Origin: Vicinamibacteraceae bacterium
Lineage (GTDB): Bacteria > Planctomycetota > Phycisphaerae > Phycisphaerales > UBA5793
Direction of reading: 5' to 3'
Length of the DNA stretch: 64,000 nucleotides
Assembly: GCA_011525805.1 (NCBI GenBank)
Contig: WYBR01000109.1
Span: 62,001 to 126,000, forward strand
Shown: piece after piece, positions 50,290 to 60,707 of the stretch
Layout of the letters: every line of letters begins with the position of its first letter
Numbering within the stretch: position 1 is the stretch's first letter
Notes under the pieces: generated by a model
What the model was told of the DNA's origin: nothing
Database searches by the model: none
What the model saw: only the letters and a program-made list of their open reading frames with translations
Translations under genes and position numbers: made by a program

Positions 50290-51924
50290 TCAACGGCCGT
50301 CCTGCTCCTGCCGGAGTGTATCCAGCCGTCGGCGCGCGGTGTCCTGGAACTGGTCGCGCAACTGGCCGAGGTGGGCGATGAGGGATGAGAAGTCGCCCCG
50401 TTCGATGCTCAGCACGTCCATCGCGTCGAGGCATCGGACCGTGGCGCTGCGCGGCGCGCGGTGGAGCAGGGCCATCTCGCCGAAGTACTGCCCGGCGCCA
50501 AGTTGCGCGATGACGTCGGCGCAGCCCGCGGCTTCATTGAAGCGCTCGACCGCGGCCGTTCCGCGAATGATGACGTAGACGCGGTCGCCGAGGTCGCCCT
50601 GCTCGAAGACGGTCTGCCCCGGCTCGAAGTGCTCGTGGTTGATGCCGCTGCTGCGGCCGAGGCGCAACTGCACGATGTCCGGCGGGAAGAAGAGATCGAC
50701 AAGCCAGGAGAGGCCGACGCGGACCTTGGCCTGCACGCCCGGCAGTTTGCTCCAGTAGACGGTGCGCCAGAGGAACCACGCGGGCAGGCCGGCGAGTTTC
50801 AGCCCCATCACCTGCGCGACGCCCTTGCGATGCCCCAGCGCGCAGAGCGAGCCGAGGCCCTTGAACTCGAAGGGCGTGAGCGTGCCGCTTTCGATCGACG
50901 CGAGGATGTTCGCGGCCGCGAGGCGCGCTTCGCGGATGGCGTGCTGGGCGGTCGGCGGCGCATAGCGCGACTCGCCCGACTCGTCAGCGCCCGGCAGGGG
51001 CACGAGCGCGCAATCGCCCAGCGCCCAGAGGTTCGCCGCGCCTTGCACCCGAAGGAACGAATCGACGACGATGCGCCCGCGATCCTTCGGAACGTCGAGC
51101 GACTCGCACAGCGGGTTGGGATGGCTGGGGACCGTGGCCACCAGCGTGGCCGTCGCGAGGCGCGATCCGTCGGCGAGCAGGGCGTGGTCGGCCGTCGCCG
51201 CCGCGAGGCGCGCGCCGAGCATGATCTCGACGCCCCGCCGGCGAAGCAGATTCTGCGCGTAGAGCGCCAGCGACTCATCGACCTCCGGCAGGATGCGCTC
51301 GCGCGAATGCAGAAGGACGAACCGGCACGCGTCGCGGCGGATCGAGGGGTAACTGCGGGCTGCCCGGCGGACGAAGTCGTGCAGTTCGGCGATCACTTCG
51401 ACACCGGAGAAACCGCCCCCGGCCACCACGAATGTCAGCAGCCTCGTCCGCAACTCGCCATCGCGCTCCGACTCCGCCTCCTCGAGTACGCGGATGACGT
51501 GGTTTCGCAGCGCGAGGGCGTCGCCGTGCGTCTTGAAGGGCATCGCGTGCTCGGCCAGACCGGTCTGGCCGCGGAAGTCCGTCACGTTGCCCAGCGCGAT
51601 CACGAGATGATCGAAGGGCAGGATGAGCGGCCGCGGCCGGAAGCCCGGCGAGCAGATCACGCGGCGGTTCACGAGATCGACGCTCTCGACGTCGCGCACG
51701 TGCAGCCGCACGCCGGGGATGAAGCGGCGGATCGGCGTGGTCGTGTCGGCGATGCCCACGCTGCCGGAGATCACCTCGGGCAGCATGGGCTGAAAGACCA
51801 GGTAGTTCTCGCGGTTGACGAGGTGGACCTCGACGCGCCCGCGGGATCGGCGGAGCAGTTCGCGGGCGGCGTACGCGCCCGCGAATCCGCCGCCGAGGAT
51901 GACGATGCGCGTGGGGTCGGACAT
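50290..51924 (-). CDS. NDH-2-type NADH:quinone oxidoreductase fused to a cyclic-nucleotide-binding domain
   Basis: A 544-residue protein. Residues 1-400 are a type-2 NADH dehydrogenase-like flavoprotein: FAD site RIVILGGGFAGAYAA, NYLVFQPMLPEV, NAD site VVAGGGFSGVEVIAEL, and ANLWALGDCALVP. The C-terminal helix (WFLWRTVYWSKLPG) is the usual membrane anchor region. Residues ~430-540 add a CRP-type CNB domain with the phosphate-binding cassette FGEMALLHRAPRSATV, keeping the Glu and Arg that bind cyclic nucleotides. It should move electrons from NADH to quinone, with ligand control of the reaction. Such a fusion is unusual. It lies in a divergent redox cluster. Confidence 0.9.
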   Translation of the reverse strand: MSDPTRIVILGGGFAGAYAARELLRRSRGRVEVHLVNRENYLVFQPMLPEVISGSVGIADTTTPIRRFIPGVRLHVRDVESVDLVNRRVICSPGFRPRPLILPFDHLVIALGNVTDFRGQTGLAEHAMPFKTHGDALALRNHVIRVLEEAESERDGELRTRLLTFVVAGGGFSGVEVIAELHDFVRRAARSYPSIRRDACRFVLLHSRERILPEVDESLALYAQNLLRRRGVEIMLGARLAAATADHALLADGSRLATATLVATVPSHPNPLCESLDVPKDRGRIVVDSFLRVQGAANLWALGDCALVPLPGADESGESRYAPPTAQHAIREARLAAANILASIESGTLTPFEFKGLGSLCALGHRKGVAQVMGLKLAGLPAWFLWRTVYWSKLPGVQAKVRVGLSWLVDLFFPPDIVQLRLGRSSGINHEHFEPGQTVFEQGDLGDRVYVIIRGTAAVERFNEAAGCADVIAQLGAGQYFGEMALLHRAPRSATVRCLDAMDVLSIERGDFSSLIAHLGQLRDQFQDTARRRLDTLRQEQDGR

Positions 51925-51956
51925 GATCCGGTTCTCTGATCCGCCCGGCGCCGAGA

Positions 51957-53198
51957 CTACGGGCCGATCGTCTGGATCATCGCCTTGATTGCCTTGACCC
52001 AATCGGCGCCCTCGCCACCTTGCGCAGCCACTTCCCACGCCTCCCAGAAGGCGTCGGGCTCCGTGGCGCCGGTTCCCACGAACCACGCCTGGCACAGCGC
52101 GGTGACGCCGAAGGCGATGTTCTTGCGCGCGACGCTTCCGCTCGCCTGATCCGCCAGCGCGGCGAGTTCCTTCGCCGCGGCCTTGCAGGCGTCCGCGGAG
52201 TAGTTCCCTTGGGCGAGGCCTGCGGGTGAGTCCGAGCCGAAGTGCTTCTTCGCGATGGCGGCCCCGGCGCCGTACATCTTCTCAAGCGATTCAGCGGTTG
52301 CGGCGTCCCAGCCCTTGCCCTTCCACGCCTGAACCTGCTCCTTGGCGGCCTGCCACGAAGCGGCCTGGCCGATCGCCCACAGTTTCGCGTTGATCCACTC
52401 GCGCTTCGAGTCGTCCCAGTGCGTCGCGTAGGCGCTCGCTGGGTCGTAGGCATAGTAGTTGTACGCGTACAACTCGAATTGCAGCGGCGGGTGCCCCGCG
52501 TCGAGCAGATCCTTGTCGATCTGCAGGTGGCAGGAGACGCACGTCGCGGCCCGGAGCGCGAGGTCCGTCGTGTCGATGAGACCCCACTCGCGCTTCAGAC
52601 CCTCCGAGCCGAGGCGCGTTCGCTCCCTGGTCGTCCATCCGGCCTCGGCATGCGGATCTTTGTAGCCCTTGGCGGCGTCGTTGCTGAGCGACCCGCCCGA
52701 AGGGCCGTGGCAGATTTCGCAGCCCACCGCGTTGGCGCTGAGCACGAACTGCTCGCCGCGCTGAGGGGCCGGGACGCTGGTCGCGTGGCAGGAGAGGCAG
52801 CGGTCTGAGGCGGAGGCGTCGGCGAGTTGCATCTTCGCCGCGATCTCCTTCGACGCAGCCTCGAAGAGGGTGTTGAACGCTTCGCGGTGCGGATCGCTGG
52901 CCGCCCAGATCGTTGATTCATCGCCGATCATCTGGCCTGACTGCTCGGTCGCGCTCTCGGCGCTGTGGCAGTCGCCGCCGGTGCACGAGGGGTTGCCGAG
53001 GTAGCGGAATCCCGGCAGGATCATGGGGTCGGTGAGGGTGGCGTGCGCCTCGAAGGTGCGCCCCCACTCGGCGCGCTCAATGGTGGGGGAGGCGGTCAGC
53101 GGAGTGGCGACCCGGAGACCGGCGGCTGCGATCACGCCTCCTGCGAGAAGCGCCAAGCCGACGCCGGGCGACGCGACAAGACCAATTCCGTGCGACAT
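51957..53198 (-). CDS. Exported tetraheme cytochrome c554-like protein with one CX4CH site
   Basis: A 413-residue protein with an N-terminal hydrophobic segment (GVGLALLAGGVIAAAGL). Heme motifs: CTGGDCH (Cys72, Cys77, His78; a CX4CH spacing), CLSCH (134-138), CEICH (160-164) and CVSCH (220-224). The YLGNPSCTGGDCHSAES, CEICHGPSGGS and CVSCHLQIDKDLLDAGHPPLQFEL segments resemble cytochrome c554 and related multiheme proteins. The C-terminal 190 residues are helical with no heme motif. It is periplasmic and probably accepts electrons from the neighbouring redox proteins. It lies 32 bases upstream of the NDH-2-CNB gene. Confidence 0.9.
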   Translation of the reverse strand: MSHGIGLVASPGVGLALLAGGVIAAAGLRVATPLTASPTIERAEWGRTFEAHATLTDPMILPGFRYLGNPSCTGGDCHSAESATEQSGQMIGDESTIWAASDPHREAFNTLFEAASKEIAAKMQLADASASDRCLSCHATSVPAPQRGEQFVLSANAVGCEICHGPSGGSLSNDAAKGYKDPHAEAGWTTRERTRLGSEGLKREWGLIDTTDLALRAATCVSCHLQIDKDLLDAGHPPLQFELYAYNYYAYDPASAYATHWDDSKREWINAKLWAIGQAASWQAAKEQVQAWKGKGWDAATAESLEKMYGAGAAIAKKHFGSDSPAGLAQGNYSADACKAAAKELAALADQASGSVARKNIAFGVTALCQAWFVGTGATEPDAFWEAWEVAAQGGEGADWVKAIKAMIQTIGP

Positions 53199-53440
53199 GA
53201 GCGGACTCTCCAGATGGACCGAGGCGGGACGGGGACGCCAAGAGCATACGGGCCGCGCGGCGGCCGGGCACGGGCCGCTTCGCCGACGAGGTGGCCTCGC
53301 GGTGGCGCTCGTCGGATCAAGGCGACGGCTCGGGCAAGCCGATGGGACTGTATCAGTCCCCGGTATCGGCCAGAACGCCCGTTCGACCCCATTCGGGAAA
53401 CCGATCGCAGCGCCGAATGCGCCTTCGGGAGCATGTGAAG

Positions 53441-55051
53441 ATGGCCAAGCGGATGCTGACGGCGAAACTCTCCGTGGACGCCGGCGTCCGGATGACGGCC
53501 GCCGACCTCGTCGGCATCGACATCTTCCGCGACCTCGACCGCCGGGTCATCGAGAAGTTCCCCGGCACGGTCGTGCGCCGCGAGTTCGAGGCGGGCGAGG
53601 TGATCTGCCGCGAAGGGGAAGGGGGCACGACGGCGTTCTACCTGCTCGAAGGCTCGGTGCAGGTCTTCATCGCCCGTCGCCTCGCGGGCGGCGCGGCCGG
53701 GCCGCGCCGCGGATGGGGCGCCGCCCTGGCGCGGTGGATCGGCGGCCGGCGCATCCGGCCGCCGCAGCACGGCGACGACGCGATCATCCCCATCGACGCC
53801 AACGTCGATCTGACGTGGGGCCAGCCGCGCACCACGCTCGGGCCGGGGGAGGTCTTCGGCGAGATGAGCTGCCTCAATCTCGCCCCGCGATCCGCCACCG
53901 TCGTCGCCGAGACCGACTGCGTCATGCTCGAAATCCTCCGCAACATGTACGAGCAGTTGCAGAAGGCGCCGACCTTCCGCGAGCGGATGGATGCGAACTA
54001 CCGCGCCCGCGCGCTGCAGGGGCACCTGCGCAACGTGCCGATCTTCCGCGACCTTCCCGATGAAGTGATCGAGCGCCTTCAGGGGCGCGCCCAACTCGTC
54101 GCGGTCGACGCCGGCACGACGATCTTCAGCGAGGGCGACGAGGCCGACGGCGTGTACATCATCCGCCTAGGCCAGGTGCGCGTCAGCCAAGCCTTCCCCG
54201 GAGGGGAGCGAACGCTCGCCTACCTCACGCGGGGCGACTTCTTCGGCGAAACGGGCCTCCTGCGCCGGGCGCAGCGCAATGCCACCTGCCGCGCCGTCGA
54301 TCATCCCATCGTCGAAGGCGGGCGCAAGCGCAAGCCGGCGCGGGTCGAACTCGTGAAGATTGCGCGGGAGGACTTCGCCGCGGTCATCGAGGAGTTTCCA
54401 CGCATCAAGGGGCGGCTGGAGTCGGTGGCGCAGGAGCGGCTGCGCCAGCAGCGCAAGGCTCGCGTTTCGCTCACCGTCTCGGCCCCGAGCCGGCGCGTTG
54501 AAGACCTTGGCCTGCTTCAAGGCCAGAACCTCATGCTCATCGACCTCGAACGCTGCACGCGCTGCGACCAATGCGTCGACGCCTGCGTGGAGGCGCACGA
54601 GGACGGGATCAGCCGGCTCTTCCGCACCGGCCCGCGCTACGACAAGTACCTCGTGCCCTCGAGTTGCCGCATGTGCCTCGACCCCGTGTGCATGATCGGC
54701 TGCCCGGTCGGGTCGATCCGGCGCAGCGAAGACCTGAGCATCGTCATCGAAGACTGGTGCGTGGGCTGCGGCATCTGCGCCAAGCAGTGCCCCTACGAGT
54801 CAATCGTTATGCACGAACTCGAGGAGTTCGGCCAGGAGGTGAGCGAGCGGCTGGCGCGCGTCGCCGAGAGCGGCGAGGTGATGGCGGTGACGCAGCGCGC
54901 CGCGGTCTGCGACCAGTGCGAAGACCTCCCCGCCGGACCCGCGTGCGTTTACGCCTGCCCGCACGACGCCGCAGCCCGCGTCAACGCCGCGGAGTTTCTC
55001 AGCGCGGGCGGGCTGTTCGCGACCGCGGCGAGGGAAGGCGAGAGGGAGTAA
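53441..55051 (+). CDS. Two CNB domains fused to a four-cluster [4Fe-4S] ferredoxin domain
   Basis: About 536 residues. Two CRP-type CNB domains come first: PBC1 FGEMSCLNLAPRSATV and PBC2 FGETGLLRRAQRNATC, both with the Glu and Arg needed for cyclic nucleotide. CNB1 has an inserted ~45-residue loop. The C-terminal ~170 residues are a DmsB/PhsB-like ferredoxin: CTRCDQCVDAC, CRMCLDPVCMIGC, CVGCGICAKQC and CDQCEDLPAGPACVYAC, 16 Cys for four [4Fe-4S] clusters. It is cytoplasmic by sequence (no signal). ATG 53441 has GGGAG upstream; earlier starts (53417, 53435) are possible. It is divergent from the CX4CH cytochrome gene. Confidence 0.9.
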   Translation: MAKRMLTAKLSVDAGVRMTAADLVGIDIFRDLDRRVIEKFPGTVVRREFEAGEVICREGEGGTTAFYLLEGSVQVFIARRLAGGAAGPRRGWGAALARWIGGRRIRPPQHGDDAIIPIDANVDLTWGQPRTTLGPGEVFGEMSCLNLAPRSATVVAETDCVMLEILRNMYEQLQKAPTFRERMDANYRARALQGHLRNVPIFRDLPDEVIERLQGRAQLVAVDAGTTIFSEGDEADGVYIIRLGQVRVSQAFPGGERTLAYLTRGDFFGETGLLRRAQRNATCRAVDHPIVEGGRKRKPARVELVKIAREDFAAVIEEFPRIKGRLESVAQERLRQQRKARVSLTVSAPSRRVEDLGLLQGQNLMLIDLERCTRCDQCVDACVEAHEDGISRLFRTGPRYDKYLVPSSCRMCLDPVCMIGCPVGSIRRSEDLSIVIEDWCVGCGICAKQCPYESIVMHELEEFGQEVSERLARVAESGEVMAVTQRAAVCDQCEDLPAGPACVYACPHDAAARVNAAEFLSAGGLFATAAREGERE

Positions 55052-55156
55052 GGCAAGGAGGCGTCGATGGATCGGGGCATCGGGGTATTGAAGGTACGAC
55101 GTGCAGACACACCCGAGGCCGCTTGCGTCTTCGCCTCAAGCAGTCGCGTGAACTGA

Positions 55157-56029
55157 ATGCTCATCGATCGATCGCACATCCCGTGGGGACTCGCAAGCGC
55201 GCTGGCGGCGGGCGGGGCGTCGTGGTGGTACGTGGCCGACGCCCCGCGGCACTTGAGCGGTCCATCCGGCTCGACGCTCGTCGGGTTGACGCTCGGCGCT
55301 GCGGCCCTGGGCATCATGCTCTTCTGCACCGCCCTCTCGCTCAAGCGCAAGGCGCCGCATCGGCGCCTCGGTCGCGCTTCGACGTGGATGCGAGGGCACA
55401 TCTGGCTCGGTCTGCTTGCGTGCGTGCTGGTCGCGCTTCACGCCGCGTTTCGACTCGGCGGCCCGGCGACGGCTTTGCTCTGGGCGCTGCTGGCGCTGGT
55501 GACGCTCAGCGGACTCTTCGGCCTGCTGCTCCAGCAGGTCATTCCCCGCCTCCTGCTGCACAGCGTGCCGGGCGAGACGATCGCCCAGCAGGTGGAGCGG
55601 CGGCTGCGCGACCTTTCCGGATTGGCCGAGCAGGTCGTCGTGCGCTTCGCCGGCAGCCTCGATGAGCCCGCGCCGGCGTGGGACGCGGCGGCGCCATCTC
55701 CGGCCGGGCCGCCTGCGGGGGGTGAGCCGATCCGCCGCTTTCATCTCGACCACTTGCGCGGTTACCTCTCCGGCCAGGCGGAGGGTGAAATCGACGATCC
55801 GCACCGGGCCGAGAACCTCTTCCACGCCCTGCGAACCATGACGCCCGAACACGCGCACGCCGGAGTTGACGAACTCGAAGCGATCTACTGCCTGCGGCGC
55901 GACCTGCTGCGCCAGCGCCGGCTGATGCGAGTGCTGTTCGCGTGGCTGCTCGTTCACGTGCCCTTGAGTTGGCTGCTGTTGCTGCTCGTGCTCGCGCACG
56001 CCGTGACGGCGTTGCGATTCTGGACATGA
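55157..56029 (+). CDS. Diheme cytochrome b-like membrane protein
   Basis: A 290-residue protein. TM segments lie at about 10-28, 41-60, 82-100, 104-128 and 257-288. Two His pairs, His81/His95 and His267/His281, have the 13-residue spacing (H-x13-H) seen in the bis-His heme helices of cytochrome b. They would let two hemes stack across the membrane. Between them is a ~115-residue soluble region (140-255) with no known domain. This is a probable quinol-interacting electron carrier. The gene lies between the CNB-ferredoxin and cytochrome genes on one strand. The heme assignment is inferred. Confidence 0.75.
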   Translation: MLIDRSHIPWGLASALAAGGASWWYVADAPRHLSGPSGSTLVGLTLGAAALGIMLFCTALSLKRKAPHRRLGRASTWMRGHIWLGLLACVLVALHAAFRLGGPATALLWALLALVTLSGLFGLLLQQVIPRLLLHSVPGETIAQQVERRLRDLSGLAEQVVVRFAGSLDEPAPAWDAAAPSPAGPPAGGEPIRRFHLDHLRGYLSGQAEGEIDDPHRAENLFHALRTMTPEHAHAGVDELEAIYCLRRDLLRQRRLMRVLFAWLLVHVPLSWLLLLLVLAHAVTALRFWT

Positions 56030-56076
56030 AAGGAGAGGCTTGAGACTGGAGACGTGAGATCCGGGGCTGAACGCAG

Positions 56077-56143
56077 GCGGTCGAGCGACCGCGACGTCAC
56101 AGGTTCCGCGCCTGTGAGCAACCGCGGGCTGCCGCCTGCGGTT
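56077..56143 (+). promoter_or_regulatory. Three consecutive hairpins before the tetraheme cytochrome
   Basis: GCGGTC/GACCGC (56077-56092), TCACAGG/CCTGTGA (56097-56117) and AACCGC/GCGGTT (56120-56143), side by side in the 149-base gap. The gap then continues with three 7-bp CCAAGCC-type tandem repeats. They may regulate the two cytochrome genes relative to the upstream redox genes. Confidence 0.5.
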
Positions 56144-56178
56144 ATGGCCCCAGCCCAAGCCCCAAGCCCCAAGCCGCC

Positions 56179-56727
56179 ATGCCCGACACTCGACCAATTG
56201 AAGAGCGATACGACATCACCTATTTCCGTCGACGGCACTGGCCGGACCGCGCGAATCGATGGCTGATGTGGCTGGTCGTCCTCGGCGGCGGGGGAGCGCT
56301 CGCTGTTCTCGCGGGACGCGGCGATCACCGGCTGTACTCCTCCGGGCCGCTGAACGTCGTTCACGCGAGTTTCGGCGATGATTGCGCGCAGTGCCACCAG
56401 CCGGCCGCGGAGGCGGGCGTGAATTACTTTGTGCCGGTGTCGGACTCCGCGTGCCTGCGCTGTCACGCGGCGGCCGCGCATGCGTCGGACCAGTCCGCCT
56501 ACAGCGCCGAGCGCGAGGTCCTCGTGCCCGGCCACGCCAGGCCCGTGCTCATGGCCGCGCGCTGCGCCGAGTGCCACATCGAGCATCGCGGACGCGAGTC
56601 CGACCTTCGCCTCGTTGCCGATCGCACGTGCGTGCAGTGCCACGAGGATCTCAGCCTCAAGGGCTACTCGCAGCGCGTCGAGCGGGACTCGTCCGGCTCG
56701 GACGTCGCCACGGAGGACTCGCCATGA
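56179..56727 (+). CDS. Membrane-anchored tetraheme cytochrome c
   Basis: A 182-residue protein with one N-terminal membrane segment (RWLMWLVVLGGGGALAVLAG) preceded by a ~27-residue cytoplasmic tail, then four CxxCH motifs: CAQCH, CLRCH, CAECH and CVQCH. It resembles the NapC/NirT and cytochrome c3/c7 class, with most hemes likely bis-His (His residues flank each motif). It could take electrons from the membrane cytochrome b and pass them to the hexaheme protein. The stop overlaps the next start (ATGA). Confidence 0.9.
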   Translation: MPDTRPIEERYDITYFRRRHWPDRANRWLMWLVVLGGGGALAVLAGRGDHRLYSSGPLNVVHASFGDDCAQCHQPAAEAGVNYFVPVSDSACLRCHAAAAHASDQSAYSAEREVLVPGHARPVLMAARCAECHIEHRGRESDLRLVADRTCVQCHEDLSLKGYSQRVERDSSGSDVATEDSP

Positions 56728-57788
56728 GGGTGCGTCTGGTCATTGGTGCGGCGGCCGCGGCCGTTTGCGGCCTGGCCGGCGCGGCCGCGGTGCTGACGCC
56801 GCGGACGGAACCGCCGGTGGAGGCGTCGATCGTGAACTCGATCACGGGCTTCGTCGCCGATCATCCCGAGTGGGCGGTGCGGCGCGAGGAGCGCCGCGAT
56901 CTGGCGACCGTGGGCCTCAATCACGCGCTGCACATGAACCACGATTCGTCGAAAATGCAAAAGCGCCTTGCCGCGGCCGGCGCGGCGGCGCTGGCGGTCG
57001 AGCGGCTCGAAGACGGCCTGCTCGCGCTCACGTGCGCCTCGTGCCACGAGCAGGATGCCGCCGGGCGGTACATGGACCCGATCCACTTTGACCGGCACTG
57101 CGCCCCCTGCCACACGATCGACCTGCCGACGCTCGGCGGCGAGCGCGTGCCGCACGGCAACATGCCGGCGCTCATCAATCACGTCGATCGCCACCTGCTG
57201 CGCGAACTCGCGAAGGAACTCAATCGCGCAGCGGCGTCGGCCCCGGCCGGCGGCGCGGCGGCGCTCGCCTATCAGCCGGGGGCGGGCTGGATCGAAAGGG
57301 CGCGCGTCGAGTCGGCCGCGACGGGCCAGCCGCGCAAGACCGGCCCCAAGGCGACCGAACCGGCGGCCGCGAGGCTGGACATGGACGCGTGGCTGGCGGA
57401 GCGGCGGGCGACGGCATACCTCACCCTCGTCGCCGCCTGCGGCAAGTGCCACACGGCCGACTCGATCACCATGCCCCCGCCCGAACCGCGCGGCAGGCCC
57501 TTCGATGTCGCGCCGCCGAACATCCCCCAGCGCTGGCTTAACCGGTCGATCTTCTCGCACCGTGCGCACCAGGCGCTGACGTGCATCCAGTGTCACGAGC
57601 AGGCGTCGACGAGCCGGGTGACCGCCGACATCATGCTGCCTTCGATCGCGTCGTGCCGCCAGTGCCATGCGCCCGCGGCGGGCGTGCGCTCCGACTGTGT
57701 GATGTGCCACGTCTATCACCCGCCGCTGACGCCGTCCCCGCCAGGCTCGCTCACGATCGAGGAATACGCGGGGAGCGGCAAGCGGTAG
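56724..57788 (+). CDS. Hexaheme cytochrome c
   Basis: A 354-residue protein with an N-terminal signal or anchor (MRVRLVIGAAAAAVCGLAGAA) and six CxxCH motifs: CASCH, CAPCH, CGKCH, CIQCH, CRQCH and CVMCH. The ATG overlaps the upstream stop, and the ribosome site is GGAGG. Additional His residues (NHALHMNH, FDRHC, RAHQALTC) could be distal ligands. It is periplasmic and probably the terminal member of the chain; its partner could be an oxidase, a reductase or an extracellular acceptor. No porin gene is in the window. Confidence 0.92.
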   Translation: MRVRLVIGAAAAAVCGLAGAAAVLTPRTEPPVEASIVNSITGFVADHPEWAVRREERRDLATVGLNHALHMNHDSSKMQKRLAAAGAAALAVERLEDGLLALTCASCHEQDAAGRYMDPIHFDRHCAPCHTIDLPTLGGERVPHGNMPALINHVDRHLLRELAKELNRAAASAPAGGAAALAYQPGAGWIERARVESAATGQPRKTGPKATEPAAARLDMDAWLAERRATAYLTLVAACGKCHTADSITMPPPEPRGRPFDVAPPNIPQRWLNRSIFSHRAHQALTCIQCHEQASTSRVTADIMLPSIASCRQCHAPAAGVRSDCVMCHVYHPPLTPSPPGSLTIEEYAGSGKR

Positions 57789-59042: not shown

Positions 59043-60707
59043 ATGAAGGAAGGGATGATAGCGAAGCGCGATCGCCGTCGAACGCTGGGAATCTTCTACA
59101 CGCCTCCGGAACTCATCGAGCCGATCCTCGATGCGGCTCTCGATCCTGTGCTCGCTCAGTGGCGCGATGAGCGATCTTGCGCGACGTCGCTTGGGCGGCT
59201 GCGCCTCATCGACCCGGCGTGCGGGAGCGGGCGCTTTCTCCTCGCGGTGTGGCGTCGACTGGCGGAGCGCGTGCGTTCGATCGCCTCGCCGCCGGGGCGT
59301 TTGCCGCTGCTGCGCCGCGCGGCGGCGTCGCTGCACGGAATTGACGTCGATGAGCAGGCGCGCCGGGCCGGGGAGGAGGCGCTCCAGGGCGAGTGTGCGC
59401 GATGGGGAGTGGAACCGCGCGACTTCGTCAACTGGTTCACACTCGGCGATGCGCTGCTCGACGTCGATGTGCTGGAGCGGTCGTTTGACGTCGTGATCGG
59501 CAACCCGCCGTTCGTCGACGCGGAGACGATGTGTGCCGCAGATCGGGACCGCCGCGCCCTGCTCGCCTCGCGCTACGAAACGGCTCGCGGCAACTGGGAC
59601 CTCTCGTCACTGTTCGTCGAGCGGGCCATTCAACTCGTCCGCCCCGGCGGGCGCATCGGCCTCGTGCTGCCGCGGCGCCTGCTCGCCTCCGACCATGCGC
59701 GGCATGCGCAGAATCTCATGGCGGCGCAGCGGATCGAAGTCATCCGCATGAACCGCCCCGACGCGTTCCCCGGAACCCGCGTCGAGACGGTCAGCGTCGT
59801 CATGCAGCGCGCCGAGCCGGGGCCGCGGCACGCCCTGCGACTCGTCGATGAAGCCGGCCGCGAGCGCAGCGCCGAGCAGCGCACGCTGCGCCTCCTCCCG
59901 CCGGGTCACTGGTCGGCGGTGCTGCACGGAGACTCGCCGGCCGCCGCCGCGTTCGTGCGGCATCAGCGCGGCAACGGTCGGCGAATCCTCGACGCGGCGT
60001 TCGTCGGGGACGGCGCGACGACGGCCGAGGCCTACCTCATCCGCGAAGCGATCGTCGAGTCGGAGGAGCGCCACGCGCCGGCCGTGCGGTTGATCAATAC
60101 GGGGACGATCGACCCGTGGGAGACGCAGTGGGGACGGCGGCCGACTCGCTATCTTCGCGGCGCCTGGCATCGGCCCGTGGTCCCCCTGCGATGGCTTGAA
60201 GCGAGTCTGCCGCGCCGCGCCGTACAGGCCCGCGCGCCGAAAGTCCTTATCGCCGGACTTGCGGGGCGGATCGAGGCGGTCGTCGACGAGGGCGGCGCGC
60301 TGTGCGGCAAGTCGGCGGTGCAGGTCATTCCCCGCGATCCCCGTCTGTGCCACGCCCTGTGCGCCTGGCTTAACTCGGCGCCGCTCAACGCCATTTACCG
60401 GGCGCTGTTCGGATCGCGCGGCTTCGGCGCGCGGTCCATGCACCTGGGGCCGCGCCAGATCGAGCAGTTGCCCCTCTGGCCGGCCGACCATCCCGGCTGC
60501 GGCGATGCGATCGACACCCTGACGCGATTGAGCCGCCGACTTCACACCCCGCGGACAGCCGGCGGGTCGTCCTCCACTCGGCGGGCGCAAAAAGGACTCG
60601 AGCAGCACATCGACCTGATCGTCGAGAGGCTGCTCGAGCGGAAGGAGGCGAAAGGGCTCAGCGCAGCGACTCGGGGGGCACGGCCGGGCCCGGGTCAAGT
60701 TCCATAA
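59043..60707 (+). CDS. Orphan N6-adenine DNA methyltransferase, TaqI/Eco57I type
   Basis: A 554-residue protein. Motif X GIFYTPPELIEPIL (16-29) and motif I DPACGSGRFLL (57-67) bind SAM, and motif IV NPPF (154-157) is the N6-adenine catalytic loop. The C-terminal half has VLIAGLAGRIEAVVDEGGALCGKSAVQVIP and LCAWLNSAPLNAIYRALF...HLGPRQIEQLPLWP, which match the TaqI-like target-recognition domain. No endonuclease motif or restriction gene is found in it or nearby, so it is probably a solitary methyltransferase. The 3' end overlaps the convergent TolB-like gene by 50 bases. ATG 59055 is another possible start. Confidence 0.9.
   Translation: MKEGMIAKRDRRRTLGIFYTPPELIEPILDAALDPVLAQWRDERSCATSLGRLRLIDPACGSGRFLLAVWRRLAERVRSIASPPGRLPLLRRAAASLHGIDVDEQARRAGEEALQGECARWGVEPRDFVNWFTLGDALLDVDVLERSFDVVIGNPPFVDAETMCAADRDRRALLASRYETARGNWDLSSLFVERAIQLVRPGGRIGLVLPRRLLASDHARHAQNLMAAQRIEVIRMNRPDAFPGTRVETVSVVMQRAEPGPRHALRLVDEAGRERSAEQRTLRLLPPGHWSAVLHGDSPAAAAFVRHQRGNGRRILDAAFVGDGATTAEAYLIREAIVESEERHAPAVRLINTGTIDPWETQWGRRPTRYLRGAWHRPVVPLRWLEASLPRRAVQARAPKVLIAGLAGRIEAVVDEGGALCGKSAVQVIPRDPRLCHALCAWLNSAPLNAIYRALFGSRGFGARSMHLGPRQIEQLPLWPADHPGCGDAIDTLTRLSRRLHTPRTAGGSSSTRRAQKGLEQHIDLIVERLLERKEAKGLSAATRGARPGPGQVP

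Follow-up and report, generated by a model that had tools for sequence, protein, structure and literature searches.

Cyclic-nucleotide-binding domains on electron carriers in a Phycisphaerales gene cluster: a candidate regulated route for electrons from NAD(P)H to the cell surface

The 64,000-nucleotide stretch of DNA analysed here (the window; contig WYBR01000109.1, positions 62,001 to 126,000) comes from a Phycisphaerales genome whose congeners include a metagenome-assembled genome of UBA5793. It contains a cluster of six redox genes, in which cyclic nucleotide-binding (CNB) domains are joined to a flavoprotein of the NDH-2 type (NDH-2-CNB) and to a ferredoxin (CNB-ferredoxin), and which further encodes cytochromes b and c (Table 1). 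A preliminary description made from the sequence alone had arranged these genes in two divergent groups, and every open reading frame (ORF) was located where it had been placed. The likely limit of the NDH-2-CNB gene was set at 51924 since a longer ORF reaching 52095 would overlap the upstream gene, and the tetraheme and hexaheme genes share an overlap of 4 bp. The region between the divergent groups was scanned for sigma-70-like promoters and terminators, and zero matches were obtained.

Table 1. Genes and features of the cluster, in positions of the window
Feature	Coordinates	Strand	Evidence
NDH-2-CNB flavoprotein (P0001)	50290..51924	-	profiles, alignment, structure model
c554-like periplasmic tetraheme cytochrome (P0002), hydrophobic N-terminal segment	51957..53198	-	profiles, heme motifs, homologues in relatives
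Divergent intergenic region, 242 bp	53199..53440	.	
CNB-A + CNB-B + four-[4Fe-4S]-cluster ferredoxin (P0003), predicted cytoplasmic, 16 invariant cluster Cys	53441..55051	+	profiles, alignments, structure model
Predicted integral membrane cytochrome b (P0004), bis-His diheme, H81/H95 + H267/H281	55157..56029	+	profiles, conserved His
Predicted membrane-anchored tetraheme cytochrome c (P0005), corresponding to the first four (N-terminal) hemes of the decaheme of relatives	56179..56727	+	profiles, heme motifs, locus comparison
Hexaheme cytochrome c (P0006), corresponding to the last six (C-terminal) hemes of the decaheme of relatives	56724..57788	+	profiles, heme motifs, locus comparison

The flavoprotein P0001 matches the Pfam families Pyr_redox_2 (4e-37), NDH2_C (4e-7) and cNMP_binding (1e-19). 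It has the Pyr_redox_2 and NDH2_C regions and the two dinucleotide-binding motifs by which the NDH-2 family is recognized and, as had been proposed, ends in a CNB domain (residues ~431-517) with the phosphate-binding cassette (PBC) FGEMALLHRAPRSATV, of which G482, E483 and R492 are invariant in an alignment of 14/14 homologues from several families. Structure prediction of the single protein, suggested earlier as a check, gave an AlphaFold model with a pLDDT of 84 whose top matches in the PDB are NDH-2 enzymes. The likeness to NDH-2 (PDB 4nwz and 9mqy) extends over the fold, the two dinucleotide-binding sites and the NDH2_C region; P0001, however, adds the C-terminal CNB domain and has H206-S207-R208 at the end of strand beta-2, where both structures carry the acidic NADH determinant (Asp or Glu). 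Relatives of NDH-2-CNB have His/Gln-Ser-(Arg/Ala/Gly) at the same site. An acidic residue there marks the NADH-specific members of NDH-2 and not the whole family. Because the determinant is replaced by His-Ser-Arg, a preference for NADPH or the use of both cofactors, rather than of NADH, is possible for P0001. A flavoenzyme with a fused CNB domain has a precedent in thioredoxin reductase, for example ATII-TrxR (PMC6544261), which like P0001 joins CNB to a pyridine-nucleotide flavoprotein, but which is a thiol/disulfide enzyme with an N-terminal CNB domain and is not tied to a membrane-bound respiratory chain.

The second carrier, P0003, matches cNMP_binding (7e-36) over several stretches together with Fer4 families, and its tandem cNMP_binding and 4Fe-4S profiles with conserved cluster cysteines bear out its description as a double-CNB protein joined to a four-cluster ferredoxin; the cluster cysteines are invariant (16/16) across 50 sequences. 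Its AlphaFold model is moderate (pLDDT 71, pTM 0.61) and has the tandem CNB domains of PKG and PKA as top matches, and the CNB fold in both carriers is backed by profile and structure comparison. Spurious CNB calls are excluded by Pfam E-values down to 7e-36, by the folds of the models and by the conserved PBC; a CRP-type regulator is also excluded, since a helix-turn-helix is absent and a profile search of the genome for PF00027 found these two proteins only. All three cassettes had been said to keep the Glu and Arg that hold the cyclic phosphate. The cassettes are exactly as quoted and the residues are conserved in relatives: Glu and Arg of PBC-A are kept nearly always across 50 CNB-ferredoxins, down to ~30% identity, and PBC-B is intact in the protein of the window and in a large group of relatives. 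The exception is CNB-B in one clade of relatives, where PBC-B is degenerate, and therefore CNB-A alone could serve as a universal receptor.

In the FGE...PRxAT-type cassette these CNB domains resemble those of the PKA regulatory subunit, PKG, CRP and the MlotiK1-SthK channels, whereas the output proposed here would be electron transfer and not kinase activity, transcription or ion conductance. The ferredoxin part is like HycB/DmsB-type subunits, whose four [4Fe-4S] clusters hand electrons to a membrane partner, but it carries N-terminal tandem CNB domains, stands without a molybdoenzyme and has a diheme cytochrome b and a decaheme cytochrome c as partners. Copies of the CNB-ferredoxin also occur at loci (L048, L049, L051, L052 and L062) near which neither cytochrome b nor multiheme genes were detected, some of them adjoining a NuoE-NuoF fusion, and a soluble NADH-linked version may exist. 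In addition, FHA (phosphothreonine-binding) domains recur on CNB-ferredoxins, on FNR-type flavoproteins, on neighbouring cyclases and probably on the decaheme cytochrome of Sphingobium (L083 8283-10316 and 11575-13188; L085 7553-9748; L143 11323-13119; L126 6909-8531; L065 770-2710), a hint that a Ser/Thr kinase may feed into this system.

Among the cytochromes, P0004 has no significant family in Pfam, its DUF4405 and Ferric_reduct matches staying below threshold. In its family of 35 sequences the only highly conserved histidines are the two Hx13H pairs, each of the four residues being kept in 34-35/35 sequences and falling in predicted transmembrane segments; such pairs are expected for two bis-His b hemes and support the probable diheme cytochrome b of the preliminary description. 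P0002 matches the Pfam family Cytochrome_C554 and has, as noticed at first, one CX4CH motif (CTGGDCH) beside three CXXCH motifs; a c554-like homologue adjoins the CNB-ferredoxin in many relatives. P0005 and P0006 match profiles of multiheme c3/c7 types. The counts of CXXCH, 4 and 6, agree with the tetraheme and hexaheme cytochromes first described, but the two are one decaheme split in two: most genera have a single 10-heme protein that matches P0005 in its N-terminal and P0006 in its C-terminal part, the 4+6 split being found in the genus of the window and in G031, and two separate proteins are thereby excluded. Profile searches with the cytochromes of the window for homology to MtrCAB-type or other named cytochrome families of extracellular electron transfer (EET) gave only weak sub-threshold multiheme matches.

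Of 392 planctomycete genomes sampled, 80 have relatives of the CNB-ferredoxin, counted at E<1e-25, many of these relatives being full length with 40-50% identity, and the surroundings of 40 loci were retrieved, their genes called and mapped. Of 33 planctomycete genera, 28 have both a P0004-like cytochrome b at most 3 kb and a multiheme cytochrome at most 4 kb away from the CNB-ferredoxin, with a spacing of cytochrome b to CNB-ferredoxin that is usually <60 bp on the same strand. A second type of operon has genes for a 17-18-heme cytochrome, cytochrome b, CNB-ferredoxin and a 15-heme cytochrome (L064, L065, L069, L076 and L078). Conservation of the gene order had been set beforehand as the refuting test, and the six-gene order is present in 5/5 genomes of the genus (the window, L067, L068, L132 and L133); these genomes and the 28/33 genera exclude an assembly accident of one genome. 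On this comparison of loci, the core shared across genera comprises CNB-ferredoxin, cytochrome b and the decaheme, plus the c554-like cytochrome, and NDH-2-CNB is joined to it only in the genus of the window. The core is also present on Sphingobium plasmids, the evidence outside Planctomycetota being plasmid records only; the large plasmids of Sphingobium sp. TomMM7A (L143) and S. herbicidovorans (pMSHV, L145) also carry a putative LVIVD surface cytochrome. Their location on plasmids suggests that the system was transferred horizontally from one phylum to another and that an experimentally tractable host may be at hand.

The loose attachment of NDH-2-CNB to the core raises the possibility that the cluster brings together by chance a stand-alone NDH-2 regulated by a cyclic nucleoside monophosphate (cNMP) and an unrelated CNB-ferredoxin operon, as no linkage of the two was found in any other lineage examined. 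We regard this as quite unlikely, since the six-gene arrangement recurs in all genomes of the genus, since NDH-2-CNB, present in 15 sampled genomes, co-occurs with CNB-ferredoxin in 8 of them (3.1 expected, p=0.004), and since other lineages have an NAD(P)H dehydrogenase of another kind next to this operon. At L121, L122, L123 and L125, in genomes without a CNB-ferredoxin match, a stand-alone NDH-2-CNB gene is accompanied by a divergent gene for a protein like class II cAMP phosphodiesterases (PDEs), and it is possible that these are NDH-2 enzymes under separate regulation.

The dehydrogenases beside the operon are of several kinds. A NuoE-NuoF fusion replaces NDH-2-CNB in seven loci, and the CNB-ferredoxins beside it have, in those tested, an N-terminal NuoG-like region (Fer2_4, NADH-G_4Fe-4S_3 and Fer4_Nqo3). 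In ten loci the operon has nearby an FNR-type flavoprotein that includes a ferredoxin domain of the plant type (Fer2). On the Sphingobium plasmids, Pyr_redox, CNB, CNB and ferredoxin are fused in one chain of 841 residues, whose gene is followed by those for the cytochrome b and the 10-heme cytochrome. The replacement by non-homologous modules together with this fusion, three further unrelated dehydrogenases in the place of NDH-2-CNB, is the strongest argument that the CNB-ferredoxin would exchange electrons with NAD(P)H.

As to the other end, several loci encode a 10-heme cytochrome of ~1200 residues with LVIVD repeats and a protein of ~630 residues which ends in an aromatic residue, matches nothing in a Pfam search and is probably an outer-membrane barrel. 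Strong homologues of both adjoin the Sphingobium operon, and the LVIVD cytochrome is directly linked to CNB-ferredoxin also in G031, G100 and G187. The genome of the window has such a pair on contig C25:32552-38597 (L156 8415-14685), where the cytochrome is a predicted lipoprotein with a lipobox-like LAAC in its N-terminal region and the porin-like protein ends in LSY; this pair is the probable outer-membrane end of the chain. The LVIVD cytochrome occurs in 39/392 genomes, and 38 of these 39 have CNB-ferredoxin (expected 8.0, Fisher p=3e-29, a value inflated by genome kinship and to be taken as a guide only); the overlap holds at the level of families (21/21).

The decaheme might instead feed a periplasmic reductase of nitrate, nitrite, N2O or another acceptor, with no route to the cell surface. 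The genes for the surface cytochrome and the porin-like protein are unlinked to the cluster in its own genome, and 42 of the 80 genomes with CNB-ferredoxin have no LVIVD cytochrome, several having an FNR-type flavoprotein and a pentaheme cytochrome nearby instead; but the near-complete co-occurrence and the direct linkages just described make a purely periplasmic respiration rather unlikely. Multiheme/porin conduits can run both ways, and the sequences do not fix the direction, so electrons could also travel inward from Fe(II), humics or a partner cell to reduce NAD(P)+ or quinone, with the CNB domains gating uptake, and the c554-like cytochrome is in keeping with this. However, NDH-2 is normally an oxidase of NAD(P)H, reduction of NAD(P)+ by high-potential donors costs energy and the operon has no pump subunit, which makes the inward direction improbable.

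The question of what the CNB domains bind leads to the cyclases. The genome of the window has four genes with class III cyclase domains; one of these encodes a CHASE2 cyclase (L139) in which, by reading of its sequence, the metal, Lys/Asp and Asn/Arg residues are the canonical ones, and cyclases of similar size are present in all congeners, of which G001 and G002 have one additional CNB match each. In the same genome, L140 3917-6220 and L142 946-4122 encode class III cyclase-like domains of putative cyclase activity fused to Ser/Thr protein kinase. A class III cyclase is found in 10/10 relatives with CNB-ferredoxin vs 30/61 overall (p=3e-4; genus level p=0.012), and G005, of the same family and without the module, has neither a CNB nor a class III cyclase match. 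Genes for FHA-GAF-class III cyclases directly adjoin NDH-2-CNB at L126, L128 and L129 and lie four genes from CNB-ferredoxin at L065 and L069. Moreover, metallo-beta-lactamase-fold proteins with significant matches to PDEase_II (class II cAMP PDE) lie 1-2 genes from NDH-2-CNB at L121, L122, L123, L125 and L126, and others of this kind lie five genes from CNB-ferredoxin at L065 and L069; a CpdA/SpdA-type phosphoesterase follows the Sphingobium genes (NCBIfam 7e-40 and 9e-28, below equivalog cut-offs). The cassette PRSAT resembles those of cAMP-binding receptors such as MlotiK1 and CRP, and because of this likeness and of the cAMP-PDE-like neighbours, the ligand would be a 3',5'-cyclic nucleotide, most likely cAMP.

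The same chain might exist with CNB domains that serve as scaffolds or oligomerization modules, or as receptors of another ligand (a nucleoside, heme or a metabolite). The loss of the CNB-B cassette in one clade points this way, as do CNB folds that are unresponsive to cAMP, such as the 'cAMP-independent' Trypanosoma PKA-R structures with guanosine or inosine among the Foldseek matches, and the encapsulin shells that also carry CNB. Scaffolding, however, needs neither the Glu nor the Arg of PBC-A, which are kept in nearly all 50 homologues and in 14/14 NDH-2-CNB proteins, and cyclase and PDE genes are nearby in several lineages, so that we hold CNB domains of this kind to be fairly unlikely. 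A cyclic-nucleotide ligand and a link to NAD(P)H are favoured because of the cyclase and PDE neighbours elsewhere, of these two being the only CNB proteins found in a genome that has class III cyclases, and of the fusions to and neighbourhood of dehydrogenases.

Taken as a whole, the cluster is, by a somewhat better than even judgement, the cytoplasmic and inner-membrane part of a cNMP-regulated conduit for electrons from NAD(P)H to the cell surface. Electrons would enter from NAD(P)H through a flavoprotein, which is NDH-2-CNB in the genus of the window and a NuoEF/NuoG-like, FNR-type or fused Pyr_redox module elsewhere, and would pass from the flavin through the four [4Fe-4S] clusters of CNB-ferredoxin to both b hemes in the membrane, then to the decaheme, a membrane-anchored protein of the periplasm that is split 4+6 in the window, and to the c554-like tetraheme; from there they would probably continue to the 10-heme surface lipoprotein and the porin-like protein, whose genes lie apart on contig C25. 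The composition of the carriers, the gene order, the membrane segments of the cytochrome b, the presence of the outer pair, the invariant cofactor ligands and the conserved cassettes of this route have support from sequence. The CNB domains on the flavoprotein and the ferredoxin would bind cNMP (most likely cAMP) made by a class III cyclase, and the bound cNMP would allosterically open or close the electron entry, and in this way respiratory flux would be under the direct control of a second messenger; here we infer the identity of the ligand, the gating or allosteric coupling, the physical complex, the direction of the electrons and the extracellular acceptor.

Several observations weigh against this conduit. 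NDH-2-CNB is unlinked to the CNB-ferredoxin operon outside the genus of the window and occurs in 7/15 genomes without CNB-ferredoxin. The adjacency of cyclase and PDE genes comes from about four lineages and not from nine independent ones, and the genome of the window has no cyclase beside the cluster, nor was a class II PDE found there. PBC-B is degenerate in one clade, the predicted outer-membrane partners lie on a different contig, and the barrel nature of the porin-like protein, which has no Pfam match, is conjectural. The NADH/quinone-to-multiheme chain first proposed is nevertheless supported, as a chain from NAD(P)H to multiheme cytochromes that a cyclic nucleotide would switch, by a core operon that crosses phyla, the fusions to unrelated dehydrogenases, the cyclase and PDE neighbours and the failure to find another CNB protein; it is changed in that NDH-2-CNB is not part of the core, that NADPH rather than NADH is possible and that an outer-membrane pair elsewhere probably continues the chain.

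Just beyond the cluster, at ~59050-60707 (+) of the window, lies the gene of a putative N6-adenine DNA methyltransferase, recognized by the motif GNPPF and possibly of a restriction-modification system.

Conduits of the porin-multiheme kind have been described from Verrucomicrobia and other groups (PMC5615132). MtrCAB, the Geobacter porin-cytochrome complex (PCC) and the verrucomicrobial porin-multiheme systems share with the proposed chain an inner-membrane entry and periplasmic multiheme cytochromes, and would also share a porin-like protein with a surface multiheme cytochrome. The predicted surface cytochrome here, however, is a 10-heme LVIVD lipoprotein and CNB domains sit on the carriers, and in place of CymA or Cbc quinol oxidases the entry here would consist of flavoprotein, CNB domains, 4x[4Fe-4S], diheme b and decaheme. 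Since the known conduits, as described, have no such inner-membrane module, the system is filed as a variant of multiheme electron-export systems. Undescribed NrfD-type complexes have been reported in Planctomycetota (PMC10732223), and these NrfD-containing clusters are excluded as the same system, being NrfD/ActD complexes with CNB unmentioned. No description of CNB with ferredoxin, multiheme cytochromes or NDH-2, nor of LVIVD repeats with multiheme cytochromes, was found in the literature searched, from which subscription journals were largely absent, and within that literature the system has no published match, in agreement with its first characterization as undescribed.

A further proposal, on which we are evenly divided, is that of a new class of respiratory complex, a 'cyclic-nucleotide-gated electron channel' comparable to the CNG ion channels, in which a 3',5'-cyclic nucleotide would directly gate the flow from NAD(P)H to the surface across Planctomycetota and Alphaproteobacteria, with exchangeable dehydrogenase inputs and dedicated cyclase and PDE genes. 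The control of respiration by second messengers is known mostly as one that works by way of transcription factors or kinases. If the conduit is as proposed, a receptor inside the electron carriers would be a direct and fast switch on the respiratory chain and on EET, by which a second messenger would act on respiration without a step of gene expression, and a role would be gained for bacterial CNB and class III cyclase proteins, both of them little understood in this phylum. The module also appears to be a so far undescribed point of entry, at the inner membrane, into multiheme electron conduits.

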